Shown piece after piece: positions 30,057 to 46,759 of a stretch of DNA of 64,000 nucleotides. The position numbers and the translations under genes are program-made. The stretch covers positions 1 to 64,000 of the forward strand of contig JAAYWH010000035.1 of the NCBI GenBank assembly GCA_012516785.1, read 5' to 3'. Numbering within the stretch: position 1 is the first letter of the stretch; each line of letters begins with the position of its first letter. The notes below the pieces were generated by a model. That model saw only the letters and a program-made list of their open reading frames with translations, was not told the origin of the DNA and did no database searches. This DNA is from Methanomicrobiales archaeon (GTDB lineage: Archaea; Halobacteriota; Methanomicrobia; Methanomicrobiales; Methanospirillaceae).

Positions 30057-30154
30057 GTGTGCACAACCGGAGCGTTCACAGGGAACTGTTGAAGGGATGT
30101 GCTATTGTAACGAACGAGGATGATCAGGAAAGCATCCGATACGGGCACCATGGT

Positions 30155-30424
30155 TCATGGTCGGTTCGCTGCTGATGGCAGGTATTCCCGCGATTCTTTC
30201 TCCCAGGGGATGAACTGGCGAGGCATCGACCCGTACTCCTTTTTTGCCCAGGAGACCGGGATAGCAGAGAGATAGGGGGCTACCGAACTCTGGCCAGGGT
30301 GCTCATAATGGAGGAAGAACCGGCCGTTCCTGGTCCGGTAGAGGTGCTTTGCCCCGTCCTTTGATGAGGCTACCAGGGTTGCTGTTGCCGTATTGTACTT
30401 CAGGCCATTGATCACCTGCTCCAT
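30155..30424 (-). CDS. Small soluble protein, 89 aa, unknown
   Basis: It starts MEQVINGLKYNTATATLVAS and has LYRTRNGRFFLHYE and MPRQFIPWEKE, a pattern of short phage- or plasmid-like hypothetical proteins (YDTATAT ... LYRTKNGxFFL). An ideal Shine-Dalgarno (GAGGAGATCC) precedes the ATG. Its function is unknown; such genes often sit near mobile or stress loci. Confidence 0.75.
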   Translation of the reverse strand: MEQVINGLKYNTATATLVASSKDGAKHLYRTRNGRFFLHYEHPGQSSVAPYLSAIPVSWAKKEYGSMPRQFIPWEKESREYLPSAANRP

Positions 30425-30756
30425 GGGATCTCCTCAATGATGAGTGAAACAACAGGAGATCCCATAATAGTTTGCGGCAGCAGCAACAGGGAAGAGGACA
30501 AGGACTAGGGGAACCATCTTTCATGGGCCGGATATCATGATGGACACCCTTGCTCTCCCTCATGCAATGCGTGCTGCAGTCACCGAAATTGCGCCCGGCT
30601 ATGGTTCATTGCCCCTTCTTATGGTGATCCCGATTCAGGGGTCCCACATAAAACAGCGATGAAGGAAAAAAATTACAGGATTCGGCCTGAGTCCACACTC
30701 ACCTCATGGAGTACATGCGAGGGCCATGTGCAGAAAAAGAAGTGTACATTCCGGGA

Positions 30757-31284
30757 TCACTGTGCGATCGAGAGCATGTACTCGGTCCCCGCAGGGGCGA
30801 TGGGTACTTCGAAGACGAGTCTCCCGCGACGGGTCTCATTGATCGGGATGGTGGCCTCCCGGAACCCATTCACGAGGCTGAACGATGCATCGTGATAGCG
30901 ATACTGCGTCCGGGAGGAATCCATGAGCGTGACAGACTCAGGGCGGTAGAGATACCCCTCAGGATACCCCACATTCCTGAGCGAGAAGTCCACCACCACG
31001 TACTCGTTGCCAGCACCAGGGTGCAGGAGAGGACTGCTGGAGTTCCATCCCGAAATACTGTACAGGCTGATGACCAGCCGTGAGGTCGCAAGAGTAGGTA
31101 CCGTCTCCTTTTTTTCCCCCACAATAAAATCGGGCGCGGGGTGGGTGGTGGAGGTGCCAGGGGCGGTTGATGGTGAAGGGGGGAGTGAGGCAGAAGGGGC
31201 CGAATCTTCCGAAGTGCAACCAGAGAAGAGGATCATCGCTCCAGCAAGACACAGGAGCAAGGGAACGATCAGCAGTCTCCGCAT
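30757..31284 (-). CDS. Membrane lipoprotein, DUF4352-like
   Basis: A 175-residue protein starting MRRLLIVPLLLCLAGAMILFSGC; FSGC is a lipobox, so the N-terminal Cys is probably lipidated. After a Ser/Pro linker, residues about 50-175 form a beta-sandwich of the DUF4352/telokin-like kind (NEYVVVDFSLRNVGYPEGYLY ... GRLVFEVPIAPAGTEYMLSI). The ATG at 31284 is used; the longer frame to 31473 adds non-coding-like sequence. Confidence 0.8.
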   Translation of the reverse strand: MRRLLIVPLLLCLAGAMILFSGCTSEDSAPSASLPPSPSTAPGTSTTHPAPDFIVGEKKETVPTLATSRLVISLYSISGWNSSSPLLHPGAGNEYVVVDFSLRNVGYPEGYLYRPESVTLMDSSRTQYRYHDASFSLVNGFREATIPINETRRGRLVFEVPIAPAGTEYMLSIAQ

Positions 31285-31892
31285 GATGACGAGGTCAGTA
31301 TCCAACAATAAATACCTCACTGCCGGACAGCGGGGGGTTCCCAAGAGCGGTCCCCCTGCAGTATCCGCCTGACGAATTCCTGCCCCGGAGCAGTGATGGC
31401 CGCCAGATTCAAAGAGCAATTCACGGTTATTTTGAAATAATAACGTTAATAAGGTGATTTTGAAACGGGCCATCCCATTCAGACCTGGTTATCTGAGCAA
31501 GTGGATAAGAACGCATAGGAATGCGATCGGAATATGCAAACTGCTGCACTGAGGAAAAAAAGATTCATCTTTGTGTATAGCATTATGCGGTTTATTTGTC
31601 AGAAGAGCCCGACGGGAAAGAGAATGTAAGCGAGCGATTACCGGGAATATTTTTCAAATTCCGGCAGGATGGTGAGAGATAAAGACTGATCAGGTCTCCC
31701 CACGAATTCAGGGAGAACCAGGGGGGTACGACTGGTTCTTGGAGAGGTACTGTACTACCAGATGTACTGCCAGGTGGGGGATAGCTCTCTGATGGTCCAT
31801 TCTTATGAGCATGCTAAGAGAGAAGGGGTACGATAAGATCGGGATTGCATTCCCAAGAGCATTCTCACCAGGATGGTGAACGAGGAGCCTCC
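31285..31892. other. Intergenic region, nothing recognised
   Basis: About 600 bases between the lipoprotein gene start and the XerA stop. It has AT-rich patches (31420-31460 and 31650) and no reading frame with homology or a ribosome binding site. Confidence 0.4.
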
Positions 31893-32849
31893 TTACGCAG
31901 GTCCTTCCCCCGGCTCCTCCTCTTTTTTCGCCGGTTTCGGGGCAGGATGCTCTGAGAGCGGGAAGAACTCCTGGTAGACCTTCCGCCGCTCATCGAGGTC
32001 AGTGTGGAGGTAGATCTCGGTCGTCTTGATCGAGGTATGCCCGAGGTTCTCCTGGACCACCCGGAGGTTCTTTGACCGGCGGTAGAGCTCGCTTGCGTAG
32101 CTGTGCCGGATCTTGTGGGGGGTGATCCCCTGCGGGGCATACTTTTTAAAGATGTGCTGGACCGAACGGGGGGAGATATGGTGCCCCATCTGCCCCAAAA
32201 AGAGCGGCCCCTCGATCCGGTTGCCGATGAACCGGGAGATCTCCTCCAGGGTCTCGTGGTCGATGAAGACGATCCGGATCTTGCCCCCCTTCCCCCGGAC
32301 CTTGATCATCTCGTCCTCGAAATCGATATCCTCGATGTTGATCCCGCAGAGCTCCGAGACCCGGACCCCGGTGGCATAGATCGTCCTGACGATCAGCCGG
32401 TCCCGGTCATCCTCGATGGAGGCGATCAGCCGGAGCACCTGGCTGTGCTTCAGGTACCGGAGCTCCTGGTCCTTGATCTTCGGCCGCTCGATCGCGACCA
32501 TCGGGTTTGCCGTGATCACCCCCTGGGAGTAGAGGAACCGGTAGAACGAGCTGAGCGTCGAGATGATCCGGTGGGTGGTCTTCGCCTTGTACGGTTTCCG
32601 GGTATTGATGAACGTGAAATAGTCCGTGATGAGGACCGGCTTCACCTCAACGGTCGTGTCCAGCCGGGCCTTTGAGAAGTCCTCCCAGAAGAGCTCGATC
32701 TTCTCGGGATTGTTCCTCCGCAGCCAGACATAGGAGGCGAAATGGCGGACCACCTGCTCGTAGCTCTGGATGGTCCGGGGGGAATAATTGCGCATCCGGA
32801 GGTAGTGACGGTAACTCACCAGCCATTCGGAAAAATAACCCCCATCCAT
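31893..32849 (-). CDS. xerA: Tyrosine recombinase XerA
   Basis: A 318-residue recombinase. Residues about 5-105 are the SAM-like core-binding domain (YRHYLRMRNYSPRTIQSYEQVVRHF). The catalytic domain has R in ATGVRVSELC, K in GKGGKIR, HKIRHSYA (HxxR), LGHTS (second H) and the nucleophile Tyr in TTEIYLHTD. Archaeal XerA resolves chromosome dimers at dif; integrases are the alternative, but the gene has no element features. The C-terminus has a charged tail (KEEEPGEGPA). A TATA-like box (CTTTAATTATC) is near 32871-32881 on the minus strand. Confidence 0.9.
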   Translation of the reverse strand: MDGGYFSEWLVSYRHYLRMRNYSPRTIQSYEQVVRHFASYVWLRRNNPEKIELFWEDFSKARLDTTVEVKPVLITDYFTFINTRKPYKAKTTHRIISTLSSFYRFLYSQGVITANPMVAIERPKIKDQELRYLKHSQVLRLIASIEDDRDRLIVRTIYATGVRVSELCGINIEDIDFEDEMIKVRGKGGKIRIVFIDHETLEEISRFIGNRIEGPLFLGQMGHHISPRSVQHIFKKYAPQGITPHKIRHSYASELYRRSKNLRVVQENLGHTSIKTTEIYLHTDLDERRKVYQEFFPLSEHPAPKPAKKEEEPGEGPA

Positions 32850-34530
32850 GCTCTATTCTTTATAACGACTGATAATTAAAGTTTTGCGCAGAATACACAT
32901 TTGCCGCAATGAATCCCCGATTCCAGGAAAAATCAGCAGGCATTCCAGGATCCCTGATTTCAGGCTCATCAGGCAGGAGACAGTTCTCCCCAGCACGAAT
33001 TATCAGGGCACGATCCTCCCCTGCATGCTCAGGGAACCGCCATTATGGGGTGGGACCTGAAACGATATCCGTTATCCCCCCTCCATGAAGAGGGAGTAGC
33101 CATTCGCGGAATCGGACCCATGTTCATCGTCGAAGAATCTCAGAAAGCCCCATAGATTCGTTCTGTTGGCAGATCGAGACCCCCCGCAATAGGCTGGAGG
33201 GTCAAAATGAAAAGAACGCCTGTCTAGGAAAGGAGGAGAATGTATCCCAGGAGACCCCAGGACGTGAGCAGGATTACGTTCCCAGTATACTCTTCCTGTT
33301 CCTGCTCATCATTCTGACAGTATCGCAGGGCAGGTTCTATTCAAGGGAGCGCTGGGCTGACCAGGTTCCACTCGTTTTCAGAACAAGGGGGATGCCCTCT
33401 GGACCCGCAAGAACCAGTGGCAGTGGCAAGGGCATACCCCAAAGCCCCCTTCCAATGTAGAGAAGATCACCTCTCCCTCAGCACGTGGGACCAGGTTCCC
33501 GTGATCAACTCCCGAAAAAGTTCAGAACGCCACATGGTATCCCCTGGTGCTGCAGGCTTATCTGACCCGATCTTCTGTATCAATACCTCCACGTCATCCG
33601 TCTTTTCGACCGGTGAGGATCGAAGAGGACAGGGTTGAACCCTGGCATGAAAGCTTCACGCTAAGCCGTGGTTCAACACACGCTTCCTTTTCCCGGATTG
33701 ATACCGACCGGTGATGGAATGAAAAGCCGAAGCATGACGATTTGCGACCTGCTCTGATAAACAGGGGATTGTCCGATTCGATGACGAATGATGTGGTATT
33801 CCCTCCACGAAATCGATCCCCGAGCATTCTTCTCCACAAGCCTGAACACCACTACTGAGTGAATCACTCCCTCTGATGATTACCATGGAACCGGCCTGAA
33901 GTCGGAGTCACGGATGAAAAGAGATCCTGCTATCCCGGGAGGCACTTCAAAGGAGATCCCTCTGGCCCACCCTTTGCGATCGATAGGGTGCTCTTTCATG
34001 GTATCCCCTTCGTCCGCCTGCAGGGTCAGGAATCATACCAGGAGAAAAAATCCGCATGCGGAAGCATGATTCCGTGTTCTCTCATACATGCGGGCACCCC
34101 TCTCGTTCCATCTTCAGTGTTTTTTGCGGCAGGCCCATTCACCTGATGAGGCCGAAGACAAACGGGAAACGATCACAGGGATTTGGGATCATGGTACACA
34201 CGGATGTACCGATCCGCCCGTTCTGGAGGGCAATACTGCCCCGGCTGCTCCGGGATCCGTTCAAACCGGGAAAGAGAGCAGCGCAATCAGGCTGCTGCTT
34301 ATCCATCGGAACCTGTTGGAGGATGAATCACCAGGATCCTGCAGGATGGTAAAAAAGAATCTATTCAGCCCCATATTCTGAAAATAATTCAAAATCTTCG
34401 TTTGAATCACTCACCAGGCCAGTTGCGCGTTCCACAAAATAAACCATATGATGCTATATCCTAAAGGGGTGCCCGAGCACGCCAATCCCGCATCCTATAA
34501 TAAATCCTGTGCGCCTAACGTACTGATCAG
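32850..34530. other. Long region without recognisable genes
   Basis: About 1.68 kb between xerA and the DUF5806 gene. Frames of 60-100 residues occur on both strands but overlap each other and match nothing. Visible structure: an inverted repeat GTTGAACC (33634-33641)/GGTTCAAC (33670-33677), the perfect palindrome TCCGCATGCGGA (34051-34062), a Shine-Dalgarno-like AAAGGAGGAGAATG at 33229 with only a 25-codon frame, and an AT-rich promoter zone at 34380-34500. It may be decayed DNA or carry an untranslated RNA. Confidence 0.45.
34440..34460 (+). promoter_or_regulatory. Motif taaacc..atgatgctata, copy 1
   Basis: TAAACCatATGATGCTATA lies 70-90 bases upstream of the DUF5806 ATG. The same sequence with two changes (TAAACCgcATGATGCTATA) is at 37208-37226 upstream of the acylphosphatase gene. 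A shared regulator site or promoter element is likely. Confidence 0.5.
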
Positions 34531-35064
34531 ATGGTGCAGCAGTTCGGTCAGGACGATGTCAACAAGTACAGGAAATTCAGGAAGGTGGATGGCGCCACCT
34601 ACCGGAAAGTAAACCAGTTCCTGCGGAAGCGGACCTACATCACTGCTCGCGAGTGGGCGATCGCCCGCCTCTGCACCGATTTCCGGACACGGAACGGGGC
34701 AGAGATGACCTTCATCGGACTGCACCTGCCGGAACTCGTCCCGTTCATGCAGGAGACCTATTCGCCCCAGGCGGTCAACCAGGCCCGGAACTCCTTCAAG
34801 AAGAAAGTGACCAAGTCCGGGGCCACCTTCTTTTACGGCGCCATGTGCGGATTCTTCACCTCAGAAGAGCTCGATGACCTCCTCTTTGAGGCAAGCGAAG
34901 TGGCACGGTTCCTCCTTGAAGTGGAGCGCTCATCGCTGGATATCGATGAAGAGATCGACATCGAGGACCGGATCTCCGATATTATGAGAAGTGTGGGAGA
35001 GTCCGCTGCTGCCCTGATCCGCACCCGGGCAGAAGATGAGGAAAAAAAGGAGGGCGAATCCTGA
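34531..35064 (+). CDS. DUF5806 family protein
   Basis: A 177-residue soluble protein with the family core KYRKFRKVDGATYRKVNQFL ... ITAREWAIARLCTDFRT and AGATFFYGAMCGFFTSEELDDLLFEASEVARFLLEVE, which I know from haloarchaea and methanogens. Function is unknown; the N-terminus looks helical and basic, with a winged-helix-like part. Its stop overlaps the mobB start (TGATG), so translation is coupled. Confidence 0.83.
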   Translation: MVQQFGQDDVNKYRKFRKVDGATYRKVNQFLRKRTYITAREWAIARLCTDFRTRNGAEMTFIGLHLPELVPFMQETYSPQAVNQARNSFKKKVTKSGATFFYGAMCGFFTSEELDDLLFEASEVARFLLEVERSSLDIDEEIDIEDRISDIMRSVGESAAALIRTRAEDEEKKEGES

Positions 35065-35771
35065 TGAAAGTAATTCACATTGCCGGCTTTTCCAATACCG
35101 GGAAGACCACGTTTATCAGGGAACTGCTGCCGGAACTTGAAAACTTGGGGCCGACCGGCGTGGTAAAACATATCGGCCACCACGGACTCTCCCTTCCCGA
35201 GGGGAAAGACACCACCCTCTTCCACGAAGCGGGAGCAGTGGCATCGGCGGGTATCGATGCGCAGAAATCCGTCCTGATCCTGAAGGAGACTGACCTCGAA
35301 CGAATCCTTGAACTCCTCTGCGATGCAGGCGTGCAGTACGCCGTCGTCGAGGGGTTCAAGGAAAAACCCTACCCGAAAGTCGTGATCGGGGACGTTCCCG
35401 GGGCAACGCATGTCATTCTCACCAATCCGTCCGTGGAGGAAGTGCTCTCACATCTCGGGGAATTCCCGGACATGGTCACGCGGGAAGGTTTTTTCAGGGA
35501 GATCGAAGCCGGCTGTGATCCCGGCAGGGCAATACAGGTCTCGGCCATCCCTACGACCATCCCGGGAGACCAGATCACCCGCCTTGAGAGGGAGTCAGGG
35601 ACCCTGGTCAGAGATCTGCATGAGGTTTCCATCCGGTTCGCGTCGACAACGACCCCCGGAGCCCGGACGCTCCTGGTCGGGATCTGCGCCCCTGATGCAC
35701 GGACCGCAATTGAAGCAGCAACGAGGATCAACAGCCTCATGCTCTCTCCCCTGCCAGGATATAAGGAGTGA
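35064..35771 (+). CDS. mobB: Molybdopterin-guanine dinucleotide biosynthesis protein MobB, C-terminal MoaE-like tail
   Basis: A 235-residue protein. Walker A GFSNTGKTT lies at residues 8-16, and GVVKHIGHHG, the Walker-B-like EGFKE and a conserved PKVVI follow as in MobB, the GTP-binding helper of MobA. The last 50 residues (VSIRFA ... TLLVGICAPDARTAIEAATRINSL ... YKE) resemble the end of MoaE, though weakly. Methanogens use molybdopterin or tungstopterin dinucleotide in formylmethanofuran and formate dehydrogenases. It follows DUF5806 and precedes glmM by 4 bases. Confidence 0.87.
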   Translation: MKVIHIAGFSNTGKTTFIRELLPELENLGPTGVVKHIGHHGLSLPEGKDTTLFHEAGAVASAGIDAQKSVLILKETDLERILELLCDAGVQYAVVEGFKEKPYPKVVIGDVPGATHVILTNPSVEEVLSHLGEFPDMVTREGFFREIEAGCDPGRAIQVSAIPTTIPGDQITRLERESGTLVRDLHEVSIRFASTTTPGARTLLVGICAPDARTAIEAATRINSLMLSPLPGYKE

Positions 35772-35775
35772 TCCG

Positions 35776-37122
35776 ATGACAGGAAAACGACTTTTTGGTA
35801 CAAACGGCGTCAGGGGGATAACAGGGGCTGACATGACCCCCACCCTTGCCCTCTCCATCGGTCTTGCACTCGGGTCGATGCGGATCGGGTCCATCGCGGT
35901 CGGACGGGATACCCGGACCTCCGGGCCTGCCCTCTGCAGTGCAGTCAAGGCAGGGCTCCTTGCGACAGGGTGTGATGTGACCGACTGCGGGATACTTCCC
36001 ACGCCGGCATTGCAGTATCTGGTGAAGGAGCATTTCGACGCCGGCGCCATGATCACCGCATCGCATAACCCCCCCGAATACAACGGGGTGAAGGTGATCG
36101 AGCCGGACGGAACCGAGATGGGAGATGAGGAGACCATCAGGCTCGAGGCAAAGATCCTTGATGAGCGCGTCCCCCTCTCCCCCTGGAACGCCACCGGACG
36201 CGAAGTACATGCCTCCCATCTCGTCAGGGAATACACCGATGCTGTCGTAAAAAAATTCCCTGCAGGGATCGGGGACGGGATCACGGTTGCCGTAGACCCC
36301 GGGTGCGGCGCCGCCTGCGCAACCACACCCGAGATCCTCACCCGCCTTGGATGCCGAGTGGTGACCCTCAACAGCCAGATGGATGGCACCTTCCCGGGCC
36401 GACTCCCTGAACCATCTCCTGAAGGACTCCGTCCGCTCGGGAACCTGGTCCGCTCAACGGGAGCGGCGCTCGGGATCGCCCATGACGGGGATGCCGACCG
36501 GGCGGTCTTTCTCGATGAGAACGGAGAATTTATCGAAGAGAACCAGGAGTTCGGCCTTATTGCCAACCAGGTCTGCCGGGACCGGAAAGGCACCGTCGTG
36601 ATGCCGGTCTCCACCTCGCGCCTGGTAGAGGAGATCGCCCGCCGCAACGGCTGCGATGTCCAGTACACCCCGGTAGGAAGCATCTATGTTGCCCGGGCAA
36701 TGCGTGCCCTCGAAGCAGCCCACAAACCTGTAGCCTTCGGGGGCGAAGGGAATGGCGGGCTCATCTATCCCGATCACCAGTACTGCCGGGACGGGGGCAT
36801 GACCGCGGCAATGATGATCGCGATCCTGGCAAGAGAACAAAGCACTGTCTCTGACCTTGTGGCGGCCCTTCCCACCTTCCACCTCATCAAGGAGAAGATC
36901 AGGGGGGCGGACCCTTCGGCCATGATCAGGAACCTCTGTACTGCATTTGCCGGGGACCACCTCGACCGGACTGATGGAATCCGGATCAACCGAAAAGAGA
37001 GCTGGGCCCTGATCCGCCCTTCAGGGACCGAACCCCTGGTGCGGGTGATCGTAGAATCTCCTGATCAGAAGATCGCTCAGGCATTCTTTGATGAGATCAT
37101 GAAGAAGATAGACCCCTCATAA
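35776..37122 (+). CDS. glmM: Phosphoglucosamine mutase
   Basis: A 448-residue alpha-D-phosphohexomutase. It starts KRLFGTNGVRGITG; the phosphoserine is Ser96 in TASHNP, the metal loop is DGDADR near residue 237, the sugar loop is GGEGNGG and the phosphate loop is RPSGTEPLVRV. The TNGVRG start and GEGNGG favour a GlmM/phosphohexomutase for GlcN-1-P. The ATG at 35776 has AAGGAGTGA before it; the frame open from 35410 is only a shadow of mobB. Confidence 0.92.
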   Translation: MTGKRLFGTNGVRGITGADMTPTLALSIGLALGSMRIGSIAVGRDTRTSGPALCSAVKAGLLATGCDVTDCGILPTPALQYLVKEHFDAGAMITASHNPPEYNGVKVIEPDGTEMGDEETIRLEAKILDERVPLSPWNATGREVHASHLVREYTDAVVKKFPAGIGDGITVAVDPGCGAACATTPEILTRLGCRVVTLNSQMDGTFPGRLPEPSPEGLRPLGNLVRSTGAALGIAHDGDADRAVFLDENGEFIEENQEFGLIANQVCRDRKGTVVMPVSTSRLVEEIARRNGCDVQYTPVGSIYVARAMRALEAAHKPVAFGGEGNGGLIYPDHQYCRDGGMTAAMMIAILAREQSTVSDLVAALPTFHLIKEKIRGADPSAMIRNLCTAFAGDHLDRTDGIRINRKESWALIRPSGTEPLVRVIVESPDQKIAQAFFDEIMKKIDPS

Positions 37123-37138
37123 AAAAATTCCAATCCTA

Positions 37139-37150
37139 TCTCTTTTTTGA
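37139..37150 (+). terminator. T-run terminator after glmM
   Basis: The sequence atctcttttttg follows the glmM stop by about 18 bases and matches the T-run motif found after thiC and the DUF475 gene. Confidence 0.45.
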
Positions 37151-37206
37151 ATTCCGGCGCCTTTTCACCCGATTTTTCCCTGGAGGAATGAGCTTCCCTG
37201 TCGTTA

Positions 37207-37227
37207 GTTAAACCGCATGATGCTATA
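37207..37227 (+). promoter_or_regulatory. Motif taaacc..atgatgctata, copy 2
   Basis: TAAACCgcATGATGCTATA, matching 34440-34460, about 130 bases upstream of the acylphosphatase ATG and near the likely promoter. Confidence 0.5.
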
Positions 37228-37359
37228 CGATAAACCGGGAGTGAGGGAAAGACTAATACCCCTGTCAGGCAACAGAGTCACCAGGAGAGTGGAGTGGAAG
37301 ACCACAGAGAGGAGTGGGGAACAGCTCCTCATAGAGGGGCGTTGGCTGAACAGGGGAGC

Positions 37360-37635
37360 ATGGTAAAGACCATCGAGATCCGGATATCCGGGAAAGTCCA
37401 GCGGGTCGGGATGAGAAACTGCATCCGAACCCTTGCAGGAAGGCTCAATATCAGGGGAGAGGTGATGAACCTGCCTGATGGAACGGTCTATGCACTGGCA
37501 ACCGGTGACCCCATCGTCCTTGAAAAGTTTGTCTCGATGATCTACAGCTGCCCGCGGGCAGTCATCAGGGATCTCGATATCCGCGACCACATCCTCCTCA
37601 CCTTCCCTGATTTCCAGGTCAAGAGGATCGAATAA
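37360..37635 (+). CDS. Acylphosphatase-like protein
   Basis: A 91-residue protein with KVQRVGMRNCI, the phosphate loop with its catalytic Arg, and GEVMNLPDGTV with the Asn that holds the nucleophilic water. It would hydrolyse acyl phosphates. The canonical VQGVGFR is altered (R for G, M for F), so substrate range may differ. ATG 37360 follows GGGGAG. It ends 7 bases from the convergent end of cas1, with no room for a terminator between them. Confidence 0.82.
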   Translation: MVKTIEIRISGKVQRVGMRNCIRTLAGRLNIRGEVMNLPDGTVYALATGDPIVLEKFVSMIYSCPRAVIRDLDIRDHILLTFPDFQVKRIE

Positions 37636-37642
37636 CCCCTTT

Positions 37643-38572
37643 TCAGGTCTTCACAATATAAAAGTCGGCCCCATTCACCAGTGCTTCCCGCAGCACCAGC
37701 ACCTGCTCGTCCAGGACCTCCTGGCAGATGGAGGTATGAAACATCCTGCTTATCCGGGTAAGGAGGGTATCAGACAGGATGCAGCGTTCCGGGCTGCATT
37801 CATACTCCCCGGGATCAATTCCCTGCCGGACCAGCCCGAGGAGCGGACGGTCGATCATCGCTGTTTTGAACGGTTCGATGAGGTCGTATACAAGACCCCT
37901 GCTCCCCTTGTGGAGGAAGCCAAGATCCGCATCCAGGCCGGCCCCGATGGCAGAGACACAGGCATTGCCAAAGAGCATCCCGTATCCCACCGAGAGGCAG
38001 CAGTTGACCGCGTCCGGATATGGCCGTGGCATCCTCCGCCGGAACTTCAGGTCGGGGGGTACCGCCCGGGCATAGATCTCGTAATACATATCGGTCACGA
38101 GCCGATGGACACGCCTGATCTCATCGACCCGGACCAGGTATTCCATCTCCGAGAGGCTCTGGTGGATAACGGGCATCTCCCCTTCGTACAGGATACGCTC
38201 GGCGCTCTCCTCCTGGAGATGCTCGATCTCCTGTATCCGGTTTATCAGCGCTGCCCTCGCAATCTTCAATGCATATGAATGGGAAGGGGCGGCCTCCTGG
38301 GCTTTCCGCATCCGCTCATCAGCATGATCCCCGAACGGCCGGAGCGTACCGAGCGGTTCGCCATCAGCCTCGAAGAATGAGATCGACTTCCCGGATCGGA
38401 GCATCCCGTTCACGACCGAGGTATGGAGGAAATGGCCCCCCATCACCATCAGGTGATCGATCTGGTCCAGGGGAACCTGCTCAAGATGCCCGTTCCTGGT
38501 GATGACGAGCGACGCTTTTGTCGCTTTCAGGTGGGCACCAAACCCAGTCACAATATGCCATGGATACCGCAC
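37643..38572 (-). CDS. cas1: Stand-alone Cas1 family protein
   Basis: A 309-residue Cas1 homologue. The N-terminal beta part (1-80) leads to the helical catalytic part with Glu165 (MYYEIYARA), His221 (GLDADLGFLHKGSRG), Asp230 and Glu233 (VYDLIEPFK): all four metal ligands are present. A full CRISPR integrase would pair with Cas2; no cas2, other cas gene, repeat array or casposon polymerase is seen within 25 kb. The GTG start has AAGGAG 6 bases upstream. It may be a solo Cas1 with a host role or a mobile integrase remnant. Confidence 0.92.
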   Translation of the reverse strand: MRYPWHIVTGFGAHLKATKASLVITRNGHLEQVPLDQIDHLMVMGGHFLHTSVVNGMLRSGKSISFFEADGEPLGTLRPFGDHADERMRKAQEAAPSHSYALKIARAALINRIQEIEHLQEESAERILYEGEMPVIHQSLSEMEYLVRVDEIRRVHRLVTDMYYEIYARAVPPDLKFRRRMPRPYPDAVNCCLSVGYGMLFGNACVSAIGAGLDADLGFLHKGSRGLVYDLIEPFKTAMIDRPLLGLVRQGIDPGEYECSPERCILSDTLLTRISRMFHTSICQEVLDEQVLVLREALVNGADFYIVKT

Positions 38573-38908
38573 GAAGAACTCCTTTCCAAAAAACGGCCTG
38601 GACCCTTTGCTCGCAGGAATGAATATGGGCAGCCCTCTACATCAATTCATCGTTTTCCGGTTCAATCCCCGATACTCCGGGGAAAAACCTCTTTTTTTCA
38701 GAAGGAGGATTCCCTGTTTCCAGCACCAGTTTTCCTCTCGATCCGGGAGGATACCAAAGCAGGCACATTGGAATAATCCCACCATGACAGCCCCTGACAT
38801 AGTTTTTTGACCGAATGCGACCGATATATGCATGTTTGACAGGTCAGCCGGGCCGGGTCCGCCAAAAAACCAACCGGCTGCCGGTATACCCGATGAAAGG
38901 AGGATGTG
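38573..38908. other. Divergent gap between cas1 and the first paaK gene
   Basis: About 336 bases, AT-richer than the genes. It has a TATA-like GCGACCGATATATGC (38817-38831) and an inverted-repeat-like stretch (cagccgggccgggtc ... aaccggctgccgg, 38846-38884) just before the paaK Shine-Dalgarno. No gene is seen. Confidence 0.45.
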
Positions 38909-40198
38909 ATGTTCTGGAACGAGAAGACAGAGACGCTGAAGAAAAAAGACCTTGAAACGATCCAGTTGAAACGGCTGAAAAAGACCATTGCACAGGTCCA
39001 GAATGTCGCCTTTTACCGGAATGCCTTCAGGCAGGCCGGGATCATTCCGGGGAGTATCAGGACACTTGATGATGTCCGCCGCGTCCCCTTTACCAGGAAG
39101 CAGGATCTCCGTGACGGGTATCCCTTCGGATTCTTTGCAGTCCCGCTCTCGAAGGTGGTCCGTATTCACACCACCTCCGGCACGACCGGGAAACCGACCG
39201 TGGTGGGATACACCAGGAAGGACCTTGATACCTGGGCCGAGCTGATCGCCCGGAACCTCACCATGGTGGGATTAAAGGAGGGGGACATCTTCCAGAACAT
39301 GGTCAATTACGGGATGTTCACCGGAGGGCTGGGATTTCACTACGGTGCAGAGAAGATCGGGCTTACCGTGATTCCCAGTGCGACGGGCAATACCAGGCGC
39401 CAGATCGAGATGATCCAGGACTTCGGGGTGACGGCAATCCATTGCACCCCGAGCTACGCGATGCACCTTGCCGAGATCGCCGAGGAGATGCAGGCCGATC
39501 TCCCGACCCTGAAGACCGGTCTCTTCGGGGCAGAACCCTGGTCCGACTCCATGCGGAAGGAGCTGGAGAAGAAACTGGGGGTCACCGCCTATGACTCCTA
39601 CGGCATCTCGGAGCTCTTCGGCCCGGGCGTTGCCTTCGAATGCGAGGAGCGGAACGGGCTGCATATCTGGCACGATTGTTACCTCGTTGAGATCATCGAC
39701 CCGGCCACCGGCGAGGTGGTGGGGGATGGCGAGCGGGGAGAACTCGTCGTCACCCCCCTGGCAAAGGAGGCGATGCCGCTCCTGCGGTACCGGACCGGGG
39801 ACATCACCATGAAACTCGAGGATGGATGCCTCTGCGGGAGATCCCAGAAGATCGGGCGGATCACCGGACGGAGTGACGATATGCTGGTGATCAGGGGTAT
39901 CAATGTATTTCCCTCCCAGATCGAGCATGTCCTCCTGAAAATACCCGAGGTGGGGAATCAGTTTATGGTCTATGTCGACCGAATCAATCACCTTGATGAA
40001 ATGACCATCGATGTCGAGATCAACCGATCCTTCTTCTCCGGGGAACTCCAGGACCTTGCCCGGATCCAGAAGAAAGTGGTAAAAGAGCTCCGCGATGCCC
40101 TTGAGTTGCGCACCACCGTCAGGCTGGTCGAGCCGGGAACCCTCCCGCGGTTCGAAGGGAAAGCAAAGCGGGTGATCGACAGGAGAGGAGCATCATGA
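38909..40198 (+). CDS. paaK: Phenylacetate--CoA ligase family enzyme, copy 1
   Basis: A 429-residue adenylating enzyme. The ATP loop is THTTSGTTGKPTVV-like (HTTSGTTGKPT), followed by GAEPWSDSMRKEL, YDSYGISELFGPG and RYRTGDIT, with the C-terminal VRGINVFPSQIE and RFEGKAKR lysine region. In methanogens such pairs activate aryl acids (phenylacetate, indoleacetate) for reductive amino acid synthesis with indolepyruvate oxidoreductase. AAAGGAGG precedes the ATG at 38909. Stop overlaps the next start. Confidence 0.92.
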   Translation: MFWNEKTETLKKKDLETIQLKRLKKTIAQVQNVAFYRNAFRQAGIIPGSIRTLDDVRRVPFTRKQDLRDGYPFGFFAVPLSKVVRIHTTSGTTGKPTVVGYTRKDLDTWAELIARNLTMVGLKEGDIFQNMVNYGMFTGGLGFHYGAEKIGLTVIPSATGNTRRQIEMIQDFGVTAIHCTPSYAMHLAEIAEEMQADLPTLKTGLFGAEPWSDSMRKELEKKLGVTAYDSYGISELFGPGVAFECEERNGLHIWHDCYLVEIIDPATGEVVGDGERGELVVTPLAKEAMPLLRYRTGDITMKLEDGCLCGRSQKIGRITGRSDDMLVIRGINVFPSQIEHVLLKIPEVGNQFMVYVDRINHLDEMTIDVEINRSFFSGELQDLARIQKKVVKELRDALELRTTVRLVEPGTLPRFEGKAKRVIDRRGAS

Positions 40199-41496
40199 TG
40201 TTCTGGGATCCGAGAGTAGAAGAGATGCCGAAGGAGGAGTTGCAGAAGCTCCAGTACAAACTCTTAAAGACCCTGGTATACCGTCTCTATAGTTTCTCCC
40301 CCTTCTACCATGACAGGATGAAGGAGACAGGCGTTCATCCCGACGACATCCAGACACTGGCTGATATCAGGAAGCTCCCGTTCATGTACAAACGAGACCT
40401 GCGTGACAACTACCCGGACAAGATCTTTGTCGCGGGCCAGGAAGATCTGGTCCGGTACCATGTCTCTTCGGGGACTACCGGGAAGCCCACCGTCGTGGGA
40501 TACACCAGGAATGACCTTGATAACTGGACCACCTCCCTTGCCCGGGGCCTTGTCTCGTGCGGGCTGGGGCGGGGTGATGTCCTCCAGGTCAGCTACGGGT
40601 ACGGCCTTTTCACCGGGGGCCTCGGGCTGCACTACGGGGCAGAGCGGGTTGGTGCAACCGTGCTCCCCACGAGCGTCGGGAACACAGAACGCCAGATCGA
40701 ACTGATGCAGGATCTCCACACCACTGCTATCGCCTGCACCCCCTCCTACCTCCTTCACATGGGGGAGGTTGCAGAGAAGATGGGGGTGAGCATCAGGGAC
40801 GATACCGATCTCCGCATGGGGATCCTCGGTGCAGAACCCTGGTCAGATGCCATGAAGGCACGGATCGAGGACTGGCTCGGGATAAAAGCCTACGATATCT
40901 ATGGGACGAGCGAGCTCTACGGGCCGATGTTCTGCGAATGTGCAGAGCAGAACGGCTTCCATGTCTGGGGAGACCTCGCTTATGTCGAGATCCTTGACCC
41001 GGTGACAGGAGAGTCCCTCGGCCCGGGTGAGAAAGGCGAACTGGTGGTCACGATGCTCCAGAAGGAGGCGCTCCCGATGATCCGATACCGTATCGGGGAC
41101 ATCACCTCGTACGAAGACGGAGTCTGCGCCTGCGGGAGAACCCATCCGCGGGTGATGCGTATCTCAGGCCGAGTGGATGACATGCTGATCATCAGGGGGA
41201 TCAACGTCTTCCCCTCGCAGATCGAGTATGCCCTTATGACCATCCCGGAGGTCGGCCAGCATTTCCAGATCGTGGTGGATCGCAAGGGGGCGCTCGATGA
41301 CATGCTGGTCCGGGTCGAGGTAGCCAGGGAGTCATTCTCGGACAAGATCACCGACCTGATGGCAATTCGGAAGAATGTCGAGCACAAGCTCAGGAACACC
41401 CTGAATGTTGCCGTGAACGTGGAACTGGTCGAACCGGGATCGCTTCCCCGGTTCGAAGGCAAGGCTAAACGGGTGATAGACAGGAGGCAGTTATAA
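40195..41496 (+). CDS. paaK: Phenylacetate--CoA ligase family enzyme, copy 2
   Basis: A 433-residue paralogue of the preceding gene, clearly similar along its full length (SSGTTGKPTVVGYTRNDLDN, GAEPWSDAMKARIED, YGTSELYGP, RYRIGDIT, RFEGKAKRVIDRR). Tandem ligases may have different aryl acid preferences. It starts in an ATGATG overlapping the stop of copy 1; ATG 40198 is equally possible. It is translationally coupled to the ACT-domain gene by TAATG. Confidence 0.92.
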   Translation: MMFWDPRVEEMPKEELQKLQYKLLKTLVYRLYSFSPFYHDRMKETGVHPDDIQTLADIRKLPFMYKRDLRDNYPDKIFVAGQEDLVRYHVSSGTTGKPTVVGYTRNDLDNWTTSLARGLVSCGLGRGDVLQVSYGYGLFTGGLGLHYGAERVGATVLPTSVGNTERQIELMQDLHTTAIACTPSYLLHMGEVAEKMGVSIRDDTDLRMGILGAEPWSDAMKARIEDWLGIKAYDIYGTSELYGPMFCECAEQNGFHVWGDLAYVEILDPVTGESLGPGEKGELVVTMLQKEALPMIRYRIGDITSYEDGVCACGRTHPRVMRISGRVDDMLIIRGINVFPSQIEYALMTIPEVGQHFQIVVDRKGALDDMLVRVEVARESFSDKITDLMAIRKNVEHKLRNTLNVAVNVELVEPGSLPRFEGKAKRVIDRRQL

Positions 41497-41930
41497 TGGA
41501 AACAGACCGGTATGTGATCAAACAGATCTCGATATTTTCGGAGAACAGACCCGGCCGGCTCGCAGCAATAGCAAAAGCTCTCACCGAGGAGAATATCAAC
41601 ATCCTTGCATTCTCCATCGCAGAGGCGGACGGGTTCGGTGTTGTCAGGGCGCTTGTCGACAAACCAAAACTGGCCTATGATAAGCTGACAGGCCTTGGAT
41701 TCAATGTCGCATTCACCGATGTGATTGCGGTAAAGATGCGGGAATCCCCCGGAGGACTGTACGAGATTGCAAAGATGCTTGCCAACGTACAGATCAACAT
41801 CGAATACTCGTATGCCTACACCGGGAAAGAGGGGGGAGTCCTGATCCTCCGGGTCGATGATGCTGATCAGGCAGTACGGCTCATCACCTCGCTTGGCGCA
41901 ACACTCCTCGAGAGCAGGGTCTTTCAGTAA
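41496..41930 (+). CDS. Tandem ACT domain protein
   Basis: A 144-residue protein with two ACT modules (about 6-70 and 76-143): QISIFSENRPGRLAAIAKALTEENINILAFSIAEADGFGVVR and VKMRESPGGLYEIAKMLANVQINIEYSYAYTG. ACT domains bind amino acids, so it probably senses an aromatic amino acid and tunes the two ligases. It starts in TAATG with paaK copy 2 and has AGGAGG upstream. Confidence 0.9.
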   Translation: METDRYVIKQISIFSENRPGRLAAIAKALTEENINILAFSIAEADGFGVVRALVDKPKLAYDKLTGLGFNVAFTDVIAVKMRESPGGLYEIAKMLANVQINIEYSYAYTGKEGGVLILRVDDADQAVRLITSLGATLLESRVFQ

Positions 41931-41933
41931 CCC

Positions 41934-43220
41934 CTATTTCTTCTCCCATTTTACCAGGTCGGAGACCCGGGAGAGCGTACTTCCCCTCCTGATCTCCTCC
42001 CTGACCCGCTCCTCAGTCTTCTGGACTTCCCTCGCACGCCTGGCAACTTCGTACGCACGCTCTTTTGGGATAACAACAACCCCGCTCTCATCGCCGACAA
42101 TCCAGTCGCCCGGCCGGACGGTCTGCCCACCGCACCTGACCTCACAGTTGATCTCGCCGAACCCTTTCGGCTCCCCGGCATTCGGGACCACTGCCCGTGC
42201 AAAAACCGGCAGTGACATCTTCCTGATATCATCGATGTCCCTGACCGCCCCATCGATGACCACGCCTTCGATCCCCTGGGTCTCTGCACTCATGGTCGCC
42301 AGTTCTCCCCATGCCGCGATATCGGTACTCCCCTCGTTGTTGATCACGAGGACATCCCCTTCGTGTGCATGATCGATAGCCTCCACCGGTTTTGACCAGT
42401 CACCGGCAAACGACTGGGCGGTGACTGCGGTGCCGACCATCTTTTTTTTTCCGGCAAGATAGATGATCCCGGCCATCGCCCCTTTCCGGTGCATCGCATC
42501 CGAGATATTCGGGGCTGAAACCCCGGAGAGGAGATTCCTGGTCTCCTCCATCACCGAGATCTTTTTGGCATATCCGCTGGCAGGGGCATCCAGCGCTTCC
42601 CGGACCTTTCGTGCCGAATCCTGCACATCCGCAGAACGTGTGATCGCACCCCCGACAATCACGATATCGGCACCCCGTGCCGATGCCTGCGGTGCTGTGT
42701 GTGCATCGAGGCCGCCCGCAACCGCAATCTCTATCCCTACCGCTCCGCGGATCGTTTCGAGCAGCTCAAGGGAACTCTTCCCGATCATCTGCTGGTCGAT
42801 CCCCACGTGGGCATTGAGGATATGCACGCCGAGAGCCTCAAGTTCACGGGAACGTGCCACCGGGTCGCTCACATTGATCAGGTCGGCCATCAGCCGGACT
42901 CCGAAGACCGAGGCGGTCCTGACCGCTTCTGCGATCACCGCATCATCGGCATCACCAAGGATACAGACCACCGAAGCCCCGGCTTTTGCTGCCATCTCCA
43001 CCTCAAGCGCCCCGGTATCGGCTACTTTCATGTCGGCTACAATAACCTGGCCGGGAAATGCAGACCGCAATCGCCTGACCGACTCCATCCCTTCGCTCTT
43101 GATGAGCGGGGTCCCCGCCTCGATCCAGTCAGCACCACCCCTGACTGCCTCCCGGGCTATCGGCAGAGCCCTCGAGAGGTCAAGGAGATCCAGGGCAACC
43201 TGCAGTACAGGCCTCTTCAT
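41934..43220 (-). CDS. Fused 3-hexulose-6-phosphate synthase/RraA-like protein
   Basis: A 428-residue fusion. Residues 1-210 are Hps ([65 protein letters not shown]), which reversibly joins formaldehyde and ribulose-5-phosphate and supplies ribose phosphate in archaea. Residues about 225-420 are RraA/HMG-aldolase-like ([39 protein letters not shown]). The ATG at 43220 is the family start; the longer frame to 43334 is not used. Convergent with the ACT gene, 3 bases apart. Confidence 0.92.
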
Positions 43221-43394
43221 GATCACTGAGGTGAGGAGAGAGGGCATAATAGTTTGCCGGGTACCCGTCTGTGTTCCCCGGTCTTGCCGCGCTTCCATGA
43301 TAACACAATAAAAAAAGGTCCGGATTCCTCCCACTTTCCTGCTCCATCCGGGAATCTTTTATGGGAATCATCACTAACACTCTGACGTACAGCA

Positions 43395-44318
43395 ATGGAA
43401 ATCCTGTCGATCATCCTAACCATCGCAGGGCTCTGCCTCTTTGAGACCATCAGCAGCATCGACAATGCCATCATCAATGCTGAGGTCCTCTCCACCATGG
43501 CCGCATGGGCGCGTCGATGGTTTCTGACGTGGGGGCTCTTTTTTGCGGTCTTCGTCATCAGGGGGCTCCTCCCCTGGCTGATCATCTGGATGACGACCCC
43601 CTCGCTCGGGCCGATCGGGGCACTGACGGCAACATTTTCAAATGATCCTGCCGTGATTGCCGCCATCGAAGAGTCGGCCCCCATACTCCTGATGGGGGGT
43701 GGCATCTTCCTGGTGTTTCTCTTCCTCCACTGGATATTCCTGGAAGAGAAGCACTACGGCCTCCGGGGGGAGTGCTATATCGCCTCGAAGGGGGTCTGGT
43801 TTTTTGCCGTCGTCTCGATGCTGCTTGCCCTCATCGTCTGGTTTGCGCTTGCCATCAATCCGCTCATGGCATTTGCGGCCGTCATGGGCTCCACCGCATT
43901 CTTTATCGTGCACGGGTTCCGGCAGAATGCCGAGGAACAGGAACGGAAGATGCTCGGGGGCACGATGTCGGACTGGAGCAAGATCTTTTACCTGGAGGTG
44001 ATCGATGCCACCTTCTCGATCGATGGTGTTCTCGGTGCCTTCGCCTTCACGCTCTCCGTGCCCCTCATCATCATCGGGAGCGGCCTTGGTGCTATTGTTG
44101 TCCGGCAGATAACCATCAGCAATGTCGACAGAATCAAACGGTATCTCTTCCTCAAGAACGGGGCCATGTACTCGATCCTCGTGCTGGGGAGCATCATGGT
44201 CCTCGATGCGTTCGGGTTCCACATCCCGACATGGCTCTCTCCCATTGCCACCTTCGTCATCGTGGGATTTTTCTATGTAAAATCGGTCAGGAACATGCCG
44301 CCTGCTGAAACGGCATAA
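43395..44318 (+). CDS. DUF475/TerC-like integral membrane protein
   Basis: A 307-residue protein with about nine hydrophobic helices. It has the TerC-superfamily signature ETISSIDNAIINAEVL near the N-terminus and its inverted repeat EVIDATFSIDGVLGAFAFT later, both with buried acidic residues suited to metal ions. DUF475 members are thought to act in metal export or tellurite resistance. A TATA-like tcttttatggg lies about 45 bases upstream. Confidence 0.9.
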   Translation: MEILSIILTIAGLCLFETISSIDNAIINAEVLSTMAAWARRWFLTWGLFFAVFVIRGLLPWLIIWMTTPSLGPIGALTATFSNDPAVIAAIEESAPILLMGGGIFLVFLFLHWIFLEEKHYGLRGECYIASKGVWFFAVVSMLLALIVWFALAINPLMAFAAVMGSTAFFIVHGFRQNAEEQERKMLGGTMSDWSKIFYLEVIDATFSIDGVLGAFAFTLSVPLIIIGSGLGAIVVRQITISNVDRIKRYLFLKNGAMYSILVLGSIMVLDAFGFHIPTWLSPIATFVIVGFFYVKSVRNMPPAETA

Positions 44319-44340
44319 GGCCTTATTTTCGCTATCCCCT

Positions 44341-44350
44341 CTCTTTTTTG
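44341..44350 (+). terminator. T-run terminator after the DUF475 gene
   Basis: ctcttttttg, 23 bases after the stop; same motif as behind thiC and glmM. Confidence 0.45.
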
Positions 44351-44366
44351 CTCTGTTCAAGGGTGG

Positions 44367-44416
44367 CCCGGCGTTCCATTCCCGGCGTTCCATTCCCGGC
44401 GTTCCATTCCCGGCGT
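44367..44416 (+). repeat. 14-base tandem repeat, 3.6 copies
   Basis: Three perfect copies of CCCGGCGTTCCATT (44367-44380, 44381-44394, 44395-44408) and a partial fourth. It lies in the gap between the DUF475 and rhodanese genes. Confidence 0.88.
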
Positions 44417-44572
44417 GCGGAGGGAGAAGGACGTATTGCCCAGAGCCGGCACCCAAAAGCGTACGTCCCGACCGCCAACTGAACAAGGGTTGGTTTCAGG
44501 GCGGGATGGTGGTTGCTCCAGGCTGAAGGGAACCATTCAATTCACCTCCAATACCGGTTTCACTGGTCGATA

Positions 44573-44917
44573 TCAGTCGTTCTGCACCGGGAGCCGCTGT
44601 GACACCCAGTTCTCATAACCACCCCGAATATTCACCACATCGGGAAAGCCACACTGGTGCATCAGCTCCATCGTCTTTTGACCCCGTATCCCCCGTCTGC
44701 AGTAGACCAGGTACCTGATCGTCCGATCCTTCTGCTCAATGCACTGCCTGAAATCAGAGCGATAAAAGTCAAGGTGCTCGGCCCCGATCAAATGCCCGCC
44801 TCGGAACTCGTCAGCGGTCCTGACATCGAGGATGCGGCAGGGACGCTCCATATCCCTGGAGAGAAGGTCAGAACATTCCCGCGGGGAGAGTTCCCGACAC
44901 CCATCCTTGTCTGGCAT
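44573..44917 (-). CDS. Rhodanese-like sulfurtransferase
   Basis: A 114-residue single rhodanese domain with LDVRTADEFRGGHLIGAEHLDF and the active-site loop YCRRGIRG, in which Cys carries the persulfide, ending GGYENWVS. It may move sulfur for cofactor or thiouridine synthesis. It stands alone, about 100 bases from the nitroreductase gene. Confidence 0.92.
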   Translation of the reverse strand: MPDKDGCRELSPRECSDLLSRDMERPCRILDVRTADEFRGGHLIGAEHLDFYRSDFRQCIEQKDRTIRYLVYCRRGIRGQKTMELMHQCGFPDVVNIRGGYENWVSQRLPVQND

Positions 44918-45015
44918 AATTCTTCCCTAGCACCCTGGCAAAGCCCAGAAACGGGAGATCACCGTCTCATACACCCTGTGGCTTGAGACGGAAAGCGTCT
45001 GAATCCCCCGCATGG

Positions 45016-45522
45016 TCAGTCTTCTTTGTACTGATCAAAGAAGACGATCTCATCCTGTTCCTTCTTCTTCTGGAGCGCGATGTCTGCCGGATAACCGGCG
45101 GGCAGGAGCGAGACAAGGGTGTAGTGATCAGGAACCCCCAGCAGTCTCCGCACCGGCTCTGCGTACTCCTTCTTGTCACCGGCAACCCAGCAGGACCCCA
45201 CCCCATAGGACTGGAGGGCGATGATCAGGTTCTCGGTGGCTGCACAGCAGTCCTCAAGGTAATACTTGGCCTTCCGTTCACCAAATACGGCAAAACAGAC
45301 CGGGGCATCGGTAATGAACCTCCCGTGATCGGTCAGACCGGCGACCTTCTCAAGCATGTCCCTCTCCCGGATGACCCCAATCAGCCAGGGCTGGAGATTC
45401 ATCGCAGTCGGGGCGAAGCGTGCACATTCGATGGCATCCCTGATGATCGTGTCCTCGACCGGAACGGGTTTGTAACTCCGGACACTGTGCCGGCATTTGA
45501 TGATGGTGGTTCCGACATTCAT
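45016..45522 (-). CDS. Nitroreductase family protein
   Basis: A 168-residue flavoprotein starting with the family motif RHSVRSYKPVPVED, with FAPTAMNLQPW (FMN contact) and GVGSCWVAG near residue 120. It could reduce nitro or quinone compounds, or act in flavin chemistry; the substrate is not predictable. Confidence 0.9.
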   Translation of the reverse strand: MNVGTTIIKCRHSVRSYKPVPVEDTIIRDAIECARFAPTAMNLQPWLIGVIRERDMLEKVAGLTDHGRFITDAPVCFAVFGERKAKYYLEDCCAATENLIIALQSYGVGSCWVAGDKKEYAEPVRRLLGVPDHYTLVSLLPAGYPADIALQKKKEQDEIVFFDQYKED

Positions 45523-45796
45523 GAGTATCCCCTTGCAGTCAAGGGAAAAAATGGTTTTGGCCTGCTGATTCCCGCCAGGGACGGATTGATGAACCGAAGT
45601 CGTTCCGATGCTCTACGGGGAAAAAGATCGTTCATAGTTCAATAGATGGCACTCTTACGGTCGGACTGAGTAAAACCACTGGAGAGATCATTTTCCCGGA
45701 ACGAGGGAATTGAGGGGAAAGGTATCGCCGTCAGTCCGCGCTGCTGGAGGGTCGGAAGTTCCCTGACCTTCTCCCAGGAAAGGGGGAGGTGTGGGC
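45523..45796. other. Short intergenic region, nothing recognised
   Basis: 274 bases between the nitroreductase start and the stop of the DUF3821 gene. Apart from an AT-rich tract near 45620-45660 I see no feature. Confidence 0.35.
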
Positions 45797-46759
45797 CTAC
45801 CTCTGGTGCCTGACCATCACCAGGAGGCAGGCGACAAAAAAGGCGGAGAGGGTGAGCATGGCACCAAAGCCCGGGGTGGTCGTGGGGGGGACCGTGGTCG
45901 GAATAACCGTGCCGGGCGTTGTTGCAGGAGATTCCGTACCAACAGTGGCAGGGGTGAGCGTAGTCACCATCGTAGCAGGAATGGTAGGGGGTGGGGTTGT
46001 GGTGGTCGTGGCCGGGTTTGTGGTGGGTGTTGGGGTGATGAGCGGATTGGTGCTCTGGAGAAGGAACTGCACTGGCACGGTCACCGTCTTTCCCTCCTGC
46101 TTGTAATTGAGATTCATATCATTCCCGGTGCTCTCCGCCCATACCGTGTAGGTGCCACTCTCAAAGCCGCCCGTCAGCCATACCCCCCCTGTATCGAATG
46201 GCGAGGCAGATATCAGGATATCCTCGAGCTGATACCCTGTCACCGAGGAATACTCAACCCCCCCTGGACCCCGGATGCGGATGGTGATCGGAGCACCCGG
46301 GGAACCAGGCCGTCTGGCAATCTCGTAGACATTGGTGTCGATCCGGAACCCCACCACGTCCCCCTTCGGGATCCAGGTGACATCGCCCGTAATCGCGAAA
46401 TCGGCGCTCTCATCCATCACCCGGATCCCGATCAGCGGGTCCTGGACATAGAACGCAAGGGTGTTTGCCGGGGACAGAAACCAGGGGCCGGTCCTGCCAC
46501 CAAAAAGAGCCGGGGAGAGGTAGAAGTCGGAGGGATCATCTACCGTCATCGTTGCCACGGGAACAGTGGCAGGGCTCCCGCCCGGCCCGAAATACACGAT
46601 CTGCGAACCGGCAGCGGCACCGGTCGCGGAGATATCAAGCCCCTGCTCTCCGAGGAAGACCGTTCCGGCAACCGGCACGGTGTTTTCTGCTGCGAGGACA
46701 GGGGAGAGCGCAAGGAGTGCAGAAAGGATGATCAGGGCATACCAGGACGAAATGCTCAT
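45797..46759 (-). CDS. DUF3821 surface protein with PGF-like C-terminal anchor
   Basis: A 320-residue protein. Signal peptide at 1-23 (ALIILSALLALSPVLA); DUF3821-type domain at about 30-235 (TVFLGEQGLDISATGA, TWIPKGDVVGFRIDTN), a domain I know mainly from Methanomicrobiales; a Thr/Pro-rich stalk (about 240-290), likely O-glycosylated; then TTPGFGAMLTLSAFFVACLLVMVRHQR, a PGF-CTERM-like archaeosortase sorting tail. It probably belongs to the cell envelope. This gene is a good lineage marker. Confidence 0.87.
   Translation of the reverse strand: MSISSWYALIILSALLALSPVLAAENTVPVAGTVFLGEQGLDISATGAAAGSQIVYFGPGGSPATVPVATMTVDDPSDFYLSPALFGGRTGPWFLSPANTLAFYVQDPLIGIRVMDESADFAITGDVTWIPKGDVVGFRIDTNVYEIARRPGSPGAPITIRIRGPGGVEYSSVTGYQLEDILISASPFDTGGVWLTGGFESGTYTVWAESTGNDMNLNYKQEGKTVTVPVQFLLQSTNPLITPTPTTNPATTTTTPPPTIPATMVTTLTPATVGTESPATTPGTVIPTTVPPTTTPGFGAMLTLSAFFVACLLVMVRHQR

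Follow-up and report, generated by a model that had tools for sequence, protein, structure and literature searches.

Cas1 has two known jobs, spacer integration and casposon transposition, and its active site is needed for both. Among the stand-alone cas1 genes, Cas1-solo group 1 was described as restricted to the Methanomicrobiales, free of horizontal transfer and without a full catalytic tetrad in any member (Krupovic 2014, citing Makarova 2013; PMC4046053), and the group was set aside as probably inactive (PMC4046053). The casposases, Cas1-solo group 2, were reported to keep the tetrad (PMC4046053). In the part of a Cas4 phylogenomic survey that deals with solo cas1 genes, agreement with the species tree was closer for these genes (correlation 0.53) than for CRISPR cas1 (0.22); the solo genes are pooled there, and group 1 is not singled out (PMC5704561). 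No later functional study of group 1 and no expression or proteome data on it were found in the literature searched, with most subscription papers outside its reach.

The stretch of 64,000 nucleotides analysed here (the window) carries a further member of Cas1-solo group 1, which is neither an orphan gene nor a casposon. As in the published description, it stands alone, belongs to a group found in the Methanomicrobiales only, has an incomplete tetrad and falls into a clade of its own. New beyond that description are the presence of the gene in all 83 genomes of the order that were searched, a conserved locus, a list of invariant residues, an acidic isoelectric point (pI) and one exception to the incomplete tetrad. 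The features of the locus are summarized in Table 1.

Table 1. Features of the cas1 locus in the window.
Feature	Position	Strand	Remarks
DUF5806 gene	34531..35064	+	PF19122, E 1.6e-69; 32/41 loci
MobB-domain gene	35064..35771	+	PF03205, E 4e-20; 24/41 loci
Phosphoglucosamine-mutase-like gene	35770..37122 (start approximate)	+	32/41 loci; annotation inferred from sequence
Acylphosphatase gene	37360..37635	+	PF00708, E 1.2e-13; convergent with cas1, 7-base gap
Cas1-solo group 1 gene	37643..38572	-	309 aa, GTG start; Pfam PF01867, E 5.3e-50; order-specific one-copy clade
E233 codon	37874..37876	-	Former ligand; E34 D19 N3 A2 in the group
D230 codon	37883..37885	-	D in 58/58; no other former ligand position is fully retained
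H221 codon	37910..37912	-	Former metal ligand; kept here, H in just 32/58
E165 codon	38078..38080	-	"Catalytic Glu" of the earlier note; E in 58/58 orthologues; outside the catalytic column
H156 codon	38105..38107	-	True column of the Cas1 catalytic Glu; Glu to His here
Shine-Dalgarno AAGGAG (GGAAAGGAG)	38579..38584	-	Six bases upstream of GTG; from sequence
AMP-dependent ligase gene	38906..40198	+	PF00501/PF14535; divergent from cas1

Family assignment, distribution and selection

The open reading frame, its coordinates, the GTG start and the AAGGAG site given in an earlier note on this DNA were borne out by the sequence, and so was the membership in the Cas1 family. Besides the Pfam match, NCBIfam model TIGR00287 recognised the protein with 132 bits at a cut-off of 71.7, PDB entries of Cas1 and casposases matched it as well, and both motifs named in the earlier note, GFLH and YDLIEPFK, are present. 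With the Cas1 subtype models (I-B, I-C, I-D, I-E, I-F, II, V) it stayed far under every cut-off.

The earlier note had asked for a Cas1 tree with casposases and solo-Cas1 groups. Maximum likelihood, applied to 72 rows including one long row (L087) and with a bootstrap that was incompletely settled, placed group 1 in one clade (99/93, 98% of bootstrap trees) with a stem of 1.07 changes per column. The casposases formed a separate clade (100/100) in the same tree, and the CRISPR Cas1 sequences scattered over it. The analysis supports a stand-alone, vertically inherited, domesticated Cas1 outside CRISPR and separate from casposons. Group 1 shares with the casposases a Cas1 fold outside CRISPR, while casposases differ by a length of about 400 aa, an extra C-terminal part, a pI of 9.2, their location on mobile elements and the retained tetrad. 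CRISPR Cas1 belongs to the same family, with D230, D241, Y163, Q92 and N190 conserved in both; it differs in the E of its GxEG motif, its place beside Cas2 and arrays and its basic character. A casposase-like Cas1 (L122; genome G050, contig 14), 61% identical to the 6opm chain, the M. mazei casposase, was observed in another family of the order; that genome also carries a group 1 gene and has no detected Cas2.

Searching 393 genomes of the phylum, 83 of them from the order, with a group profile, exactly one strong match (320-472 bits) was found in each of the 83, while none of the 310 genomes outside the Methanomicrobiales gave a match above 142 bits. In the search among relatives the gene was present in 45 of 45 high-quality genomes, and the six genomes without it are 62-78% complete. 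For 24 of the 25 closest pairs dN/dS ranged from 0.07 to 0.20, with 0.33 for the remaining pair, and no matched orthologue contained an internal stop. Viral contigs (searched with a single sequence and a profile) and phage and plasmid collections yielded no group member, only distant Cas1. The group 1 gene is an order-wide one-copy core gene under purifying selection, not junk. One copy per genome and a gene order common to six families indicate vertical inheritance.

Genomic setting

The window gene is the sole Cas1 of its own genome, a metagenome-assembled genome (MAG) of 1.96 Mb with a completeness of 89.9%. The absence of cas2 and of CRISPR arrays from the window, claimed in the earlier note, was upheld by a Cas2 search and an array scan. 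Cas2 was also sought elsewhere in the genome, as the note had proposed, and no match was detectable in the 1.96-Mb, 89.9%-complete MAG. Cas6 was not found there either, using a model that is a weak test, since it recovered just 2 of 14 control genomes. As the MAG is 89.9% complete, the missing Cas2 and Cas6 are no proof of absence. Around group members no CRISPR arrays were found in 48 neighbourhoods, mostly covering 5-8 kb on each side, whereas flanking arrays accompany the majority of CRISPR Cas1 loci that were retrieved identically. Two repeat signals near orthologues were rejected as CRISPR arrays and represent tandem repeats. Thus, the window gene is a Cas1 homologue unlinked to arrays and other cas genes, and its locus lacks the Cas2 gene and array of a CRISPR-Cas adaptation module.

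Gene order was surveyed in 41 neighbourhoods from six families, with about 8 kb on each side. Usually cas1 is followed, in the opposite orientation, by the genes for acylphosphatase, in part of the loci a large helical-repeat protein, phosphoglucosamine mutase, the MobB-domain protein and the DUF5806 protein. Of 48 loci, 39 have cas1 and the acylphosphatase gene in convergent orientation, at a gap of usually -39 to +31 bases, and the ends overlap in 24 of the 39; in the window, the Pfam match confirmed acylphosphatase as the convergent neighbour that the earlier note had placed 7 bases away. Such a tight convergent overlap may itself keep the pair together, and the acylphosphatase was therefore not read as a functional partner. 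The upstream gene is divergent in the window and in most family members. Since the ligase gene upstream is transcribed away from it, cas1 shares an operon with no other gene and is served by a promoter region of its own (38573-38905). No mobile-element genes were found in the neighbourhood, inverted repeats do not flank cas1, as the earlier note had stated, and Rfam gave no match in window positions 30000-46000. The housekeeping setting proposed before was supported by comparing the neighbours of orthologues, which revealed one conserved chromosomal site.

Several further genes were observed around this site. In 22 of 41 loci (e.g. L047, 1231-4809 bases after the cas1 start) a conserved gene for a protein of some 1190 aa adjoins that for acylphosphatase, mostly lying between it and the gene for phosphoglucosamine mutase; the protein apparently consists of helical repeats throughout, has no Pfam match above the cut-off and is absent from the genus of the window. 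Window positions 38906-41930 hold two tandem AMP-dependent (phenylacetate-CoA-ligase-like) ligase genes and an ACT-domain-like gene, which are found beside cas1 in many relatives. A Xer-type tyrosine recombinase, probably a chromosomal XerA-like enzyme, is encoded at 31893-32849 on the minus strand; in 9 of the 41 neighbourhoods such a gene lies close to the locus.

The former catalytic site and newly fixed residues

According to the earlier note all four metal ligands (E165, H221, D230, E233) and an intact active site were present. The first of these assignments turned out to be wrong. In an alignment of 68 rows, comprising 53 orthologues and 15 CRISPR Cas1 proteins of the same order, the catalytic Glu of 15/15 CRISPR Cas1 stood opposite H156, and pairwise alignments to the solved Cas1 and casposase structures 4n06, 7cr6 and 6opm set it there as well. 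This column corresponds to E141 in E. coli Cas1. E165 lies nine residues beyond H156 on the same helix, at a position where CRISPR Cas1 carries D, S, A, R, Q, N or E. The tetrad of the window protein reads H-H-D-E, with three of the four ligand positions retained and the Glu replaced.

Conservation was analysed in 58 sequences, the 53 orthologues and five more divergent ones. At position 156, 31 H, 7 F, 6 S, 5 Y, 5 E, 2 A and 2 Q were found, and at position 221 eight other residues besides His. Ranked by entropy, positions 156, 221, 230 and 233 were 184, 188, 15 and 104 of 309 in the group, compared to 3, 9, 10 and 11 for the same columns in CRISPR Cas1. The genus of the window alone shows both H and Y at position 156 and both H and T at position 221, and the tree requires at least 10-12 changes each at positions 156, 221 and 233. 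A complete tetrad was present in 15/15 CRISPR Cas1 of the order versus 1/58 orthologues, leaving 57 incomplete. The lone orthologue with all four residues (L017, genome G026) is a small exception to the published statement that no member has them. The most diverged orthologues (L072 and L107-L111, group f6/g29; 320-381 bits) show the tetrad F-Y-D-E, with no acylphosphatase found adjoining. Judged from the alignments, the group 1 pattern is one of relaxed catalysis and not of an intact site, with the former catalytic columns varying freely. With the intact site, the idea of a domesticated integrase in the catalytic sense lost its support.

A total of 18 residues are invariant in 58/58 orthologues. 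Of these, G12, G45, Q92, Y163, D230 and D241 are common to or frequent in CRISPR Cas1, whereas at least ten (W5, H47, G131, E132, R154, M162, E165, R169, R263 and C264) are unfixed there. Relative to CRISPR Cas1, the conserved face of the former catalytic helix is turned by about 150 degrees, a shift of modest significance (2% and 4% of shuffles). An AlphaFold2 model computed from two sequences only (window and L032) had a pLDDT of 37, too low to be used.

Possible roles of the group 1 protein

A conserved catalytic site was lost while selection kept the protein intact, and the group 1 gene therefore probably serves a non-CRISPR job. We consider it fairly likely, on sequence evidence, that the protein is an exapted Cas1 pseudo-integrase, which is vertically inherited and takes part in a chromosomal process by binding or as a scaffold, without catalysis. 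We cautiously lean to the view that a Cas1 has become a housekeeping protein throughout the order, with no catalytic activity left and a newly conserved surface, and that its cellular function lies outside both immunity and transposition. Distribution, tree and synteny show that a Cas1 entered the chromosome of an ancestor of the Methanomicrobiales, lost its ties to Cas2, to CRISPR arrays and to transposition, and was passed on vertically at one site as a one-copy core gene. From the conservation pattern, selection has ceased to act on metal-dependent integration, since another residue has taken the place of the catalytic Glu and drift affects the His and Glu/Asp ligands. A new set of residues has been fixed instead: in the N-terminal beta domain W5, H40 and H47, on the former catalytic helix R154, M162, E165 and R169, and in addition E132 and R263-C264. 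The Cas1 fold and a basic RRRTxRP loop would be kept, and the protein may act as a binder of nucleic-acid ends or branches or as a protein scaffold. Its setting may be a constitutive DNA-maintenance process, in which partners would be held via the newly fixed surface and DNA would be neither cut nor joined. As to the idea that it replaces the Holliday-junction resolvase Hjc, most of the order gave a weak match or none with the Pfam model for Hjc, which also missed the Methanosarcina acetivorans control.

Alternatively, DNA might still be cut or joined, either via D230 together with E132, H47, E165, D241 and C264 or via what remains of H156/H221/D230/E233. The invariance of D230 and D241 and the new invariant polar residues are in line with such an alternative site, a different catalytic set was named as the less likely option by Krupovic 2014 (PMC4046053), and the His-His-Asp-Asp/Glu set retained by the window protein and 18 others (19/58) could, going by residue type, still bind metal. 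However, 22/58 carry Y, F, S, A or Q at position 156, His 221 is exchanged for other residues even within one genus, and D241 is uninformative here, being equally invariant in CRISPR Cas1. We regard this nuclease or integrase as unlikely.

Charge bears on a different option, a protein-only scaffold or unrelated enzyme without a nucleic-acid role, for example binding a ligand or metal via W5, H14, H40 and H47. Group 1 has a median pI of 6.3, whereas CRISPR Cas1 reaches 8.9 within the order (Mann-Whitney p 9e-6) and 9.3 outside it, and the casposases are similarly high. Net charge is -5 versus +5.5 to +11 in CRISPR Cas1 and casposases, and the C-terminal part has -3.1 versus +2.7. The drop in pI argues against a general affinity for DNA and could mean that the protein interacts with other proteins only; the nearly invariant histidines of the N-terminal domain fit as well. 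Nevertheless, the loop before P184 (RRRTxRP) has become more basic, not less (R179 in 56/58, R178 in 49/58, R183 in 46/58), and the locus is without a partner gene, so that we judge a protein-only role to be rather improbable.

A non-catalytic Cas1 subunit modulating spacer acquisition by the Cas1-Cas2 of the same cell would be compatible with the presence of Cas2 in 26/45 high-quality genomes of the order and of CRISPR Cas1 of other types in many, but such an accessory is very unlikely given that the gene is present in all 45, including all 19 without detectable Cas2, that the window's genome has neither Cas2 nor a second Cas1, and that linkage to arrays is missing. A fully active stand-alone integrase or a casposase remnant is scarcely credible: the Cas1 fold, the three retained ligand positions of the window member and a union with casposases that, though unsupported, was not rejected (AU p 0.15) face, for most of the group, a replaced catalytic Glu and unconstrained catalytic columns, and, for the window gene, a fixed chromosomal site with no intact tetrad, PolB gene, terminal inverted repeats, target-site duplication or sign of mobility, in contrast to casposases with their own clade and reportedly retained tetrad (PMC4046053).

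Family models label the group 1 protein "CRISPR-associated endonuclease Cas1", and the gene can for this reason be miscounted as CRISPR evidence in genomes that have no CRISPR. Core status, selection and fixed residues demonstrate that a group set aside as inactive is not junk, and they provide residues and a locus that can be tested. If the exapted pseudo-integrase is true, a Cas1 whose site has decayed but which persists in all sampled genomes of a major order of methanogens would represent a third, chromosomal use of Cas1.
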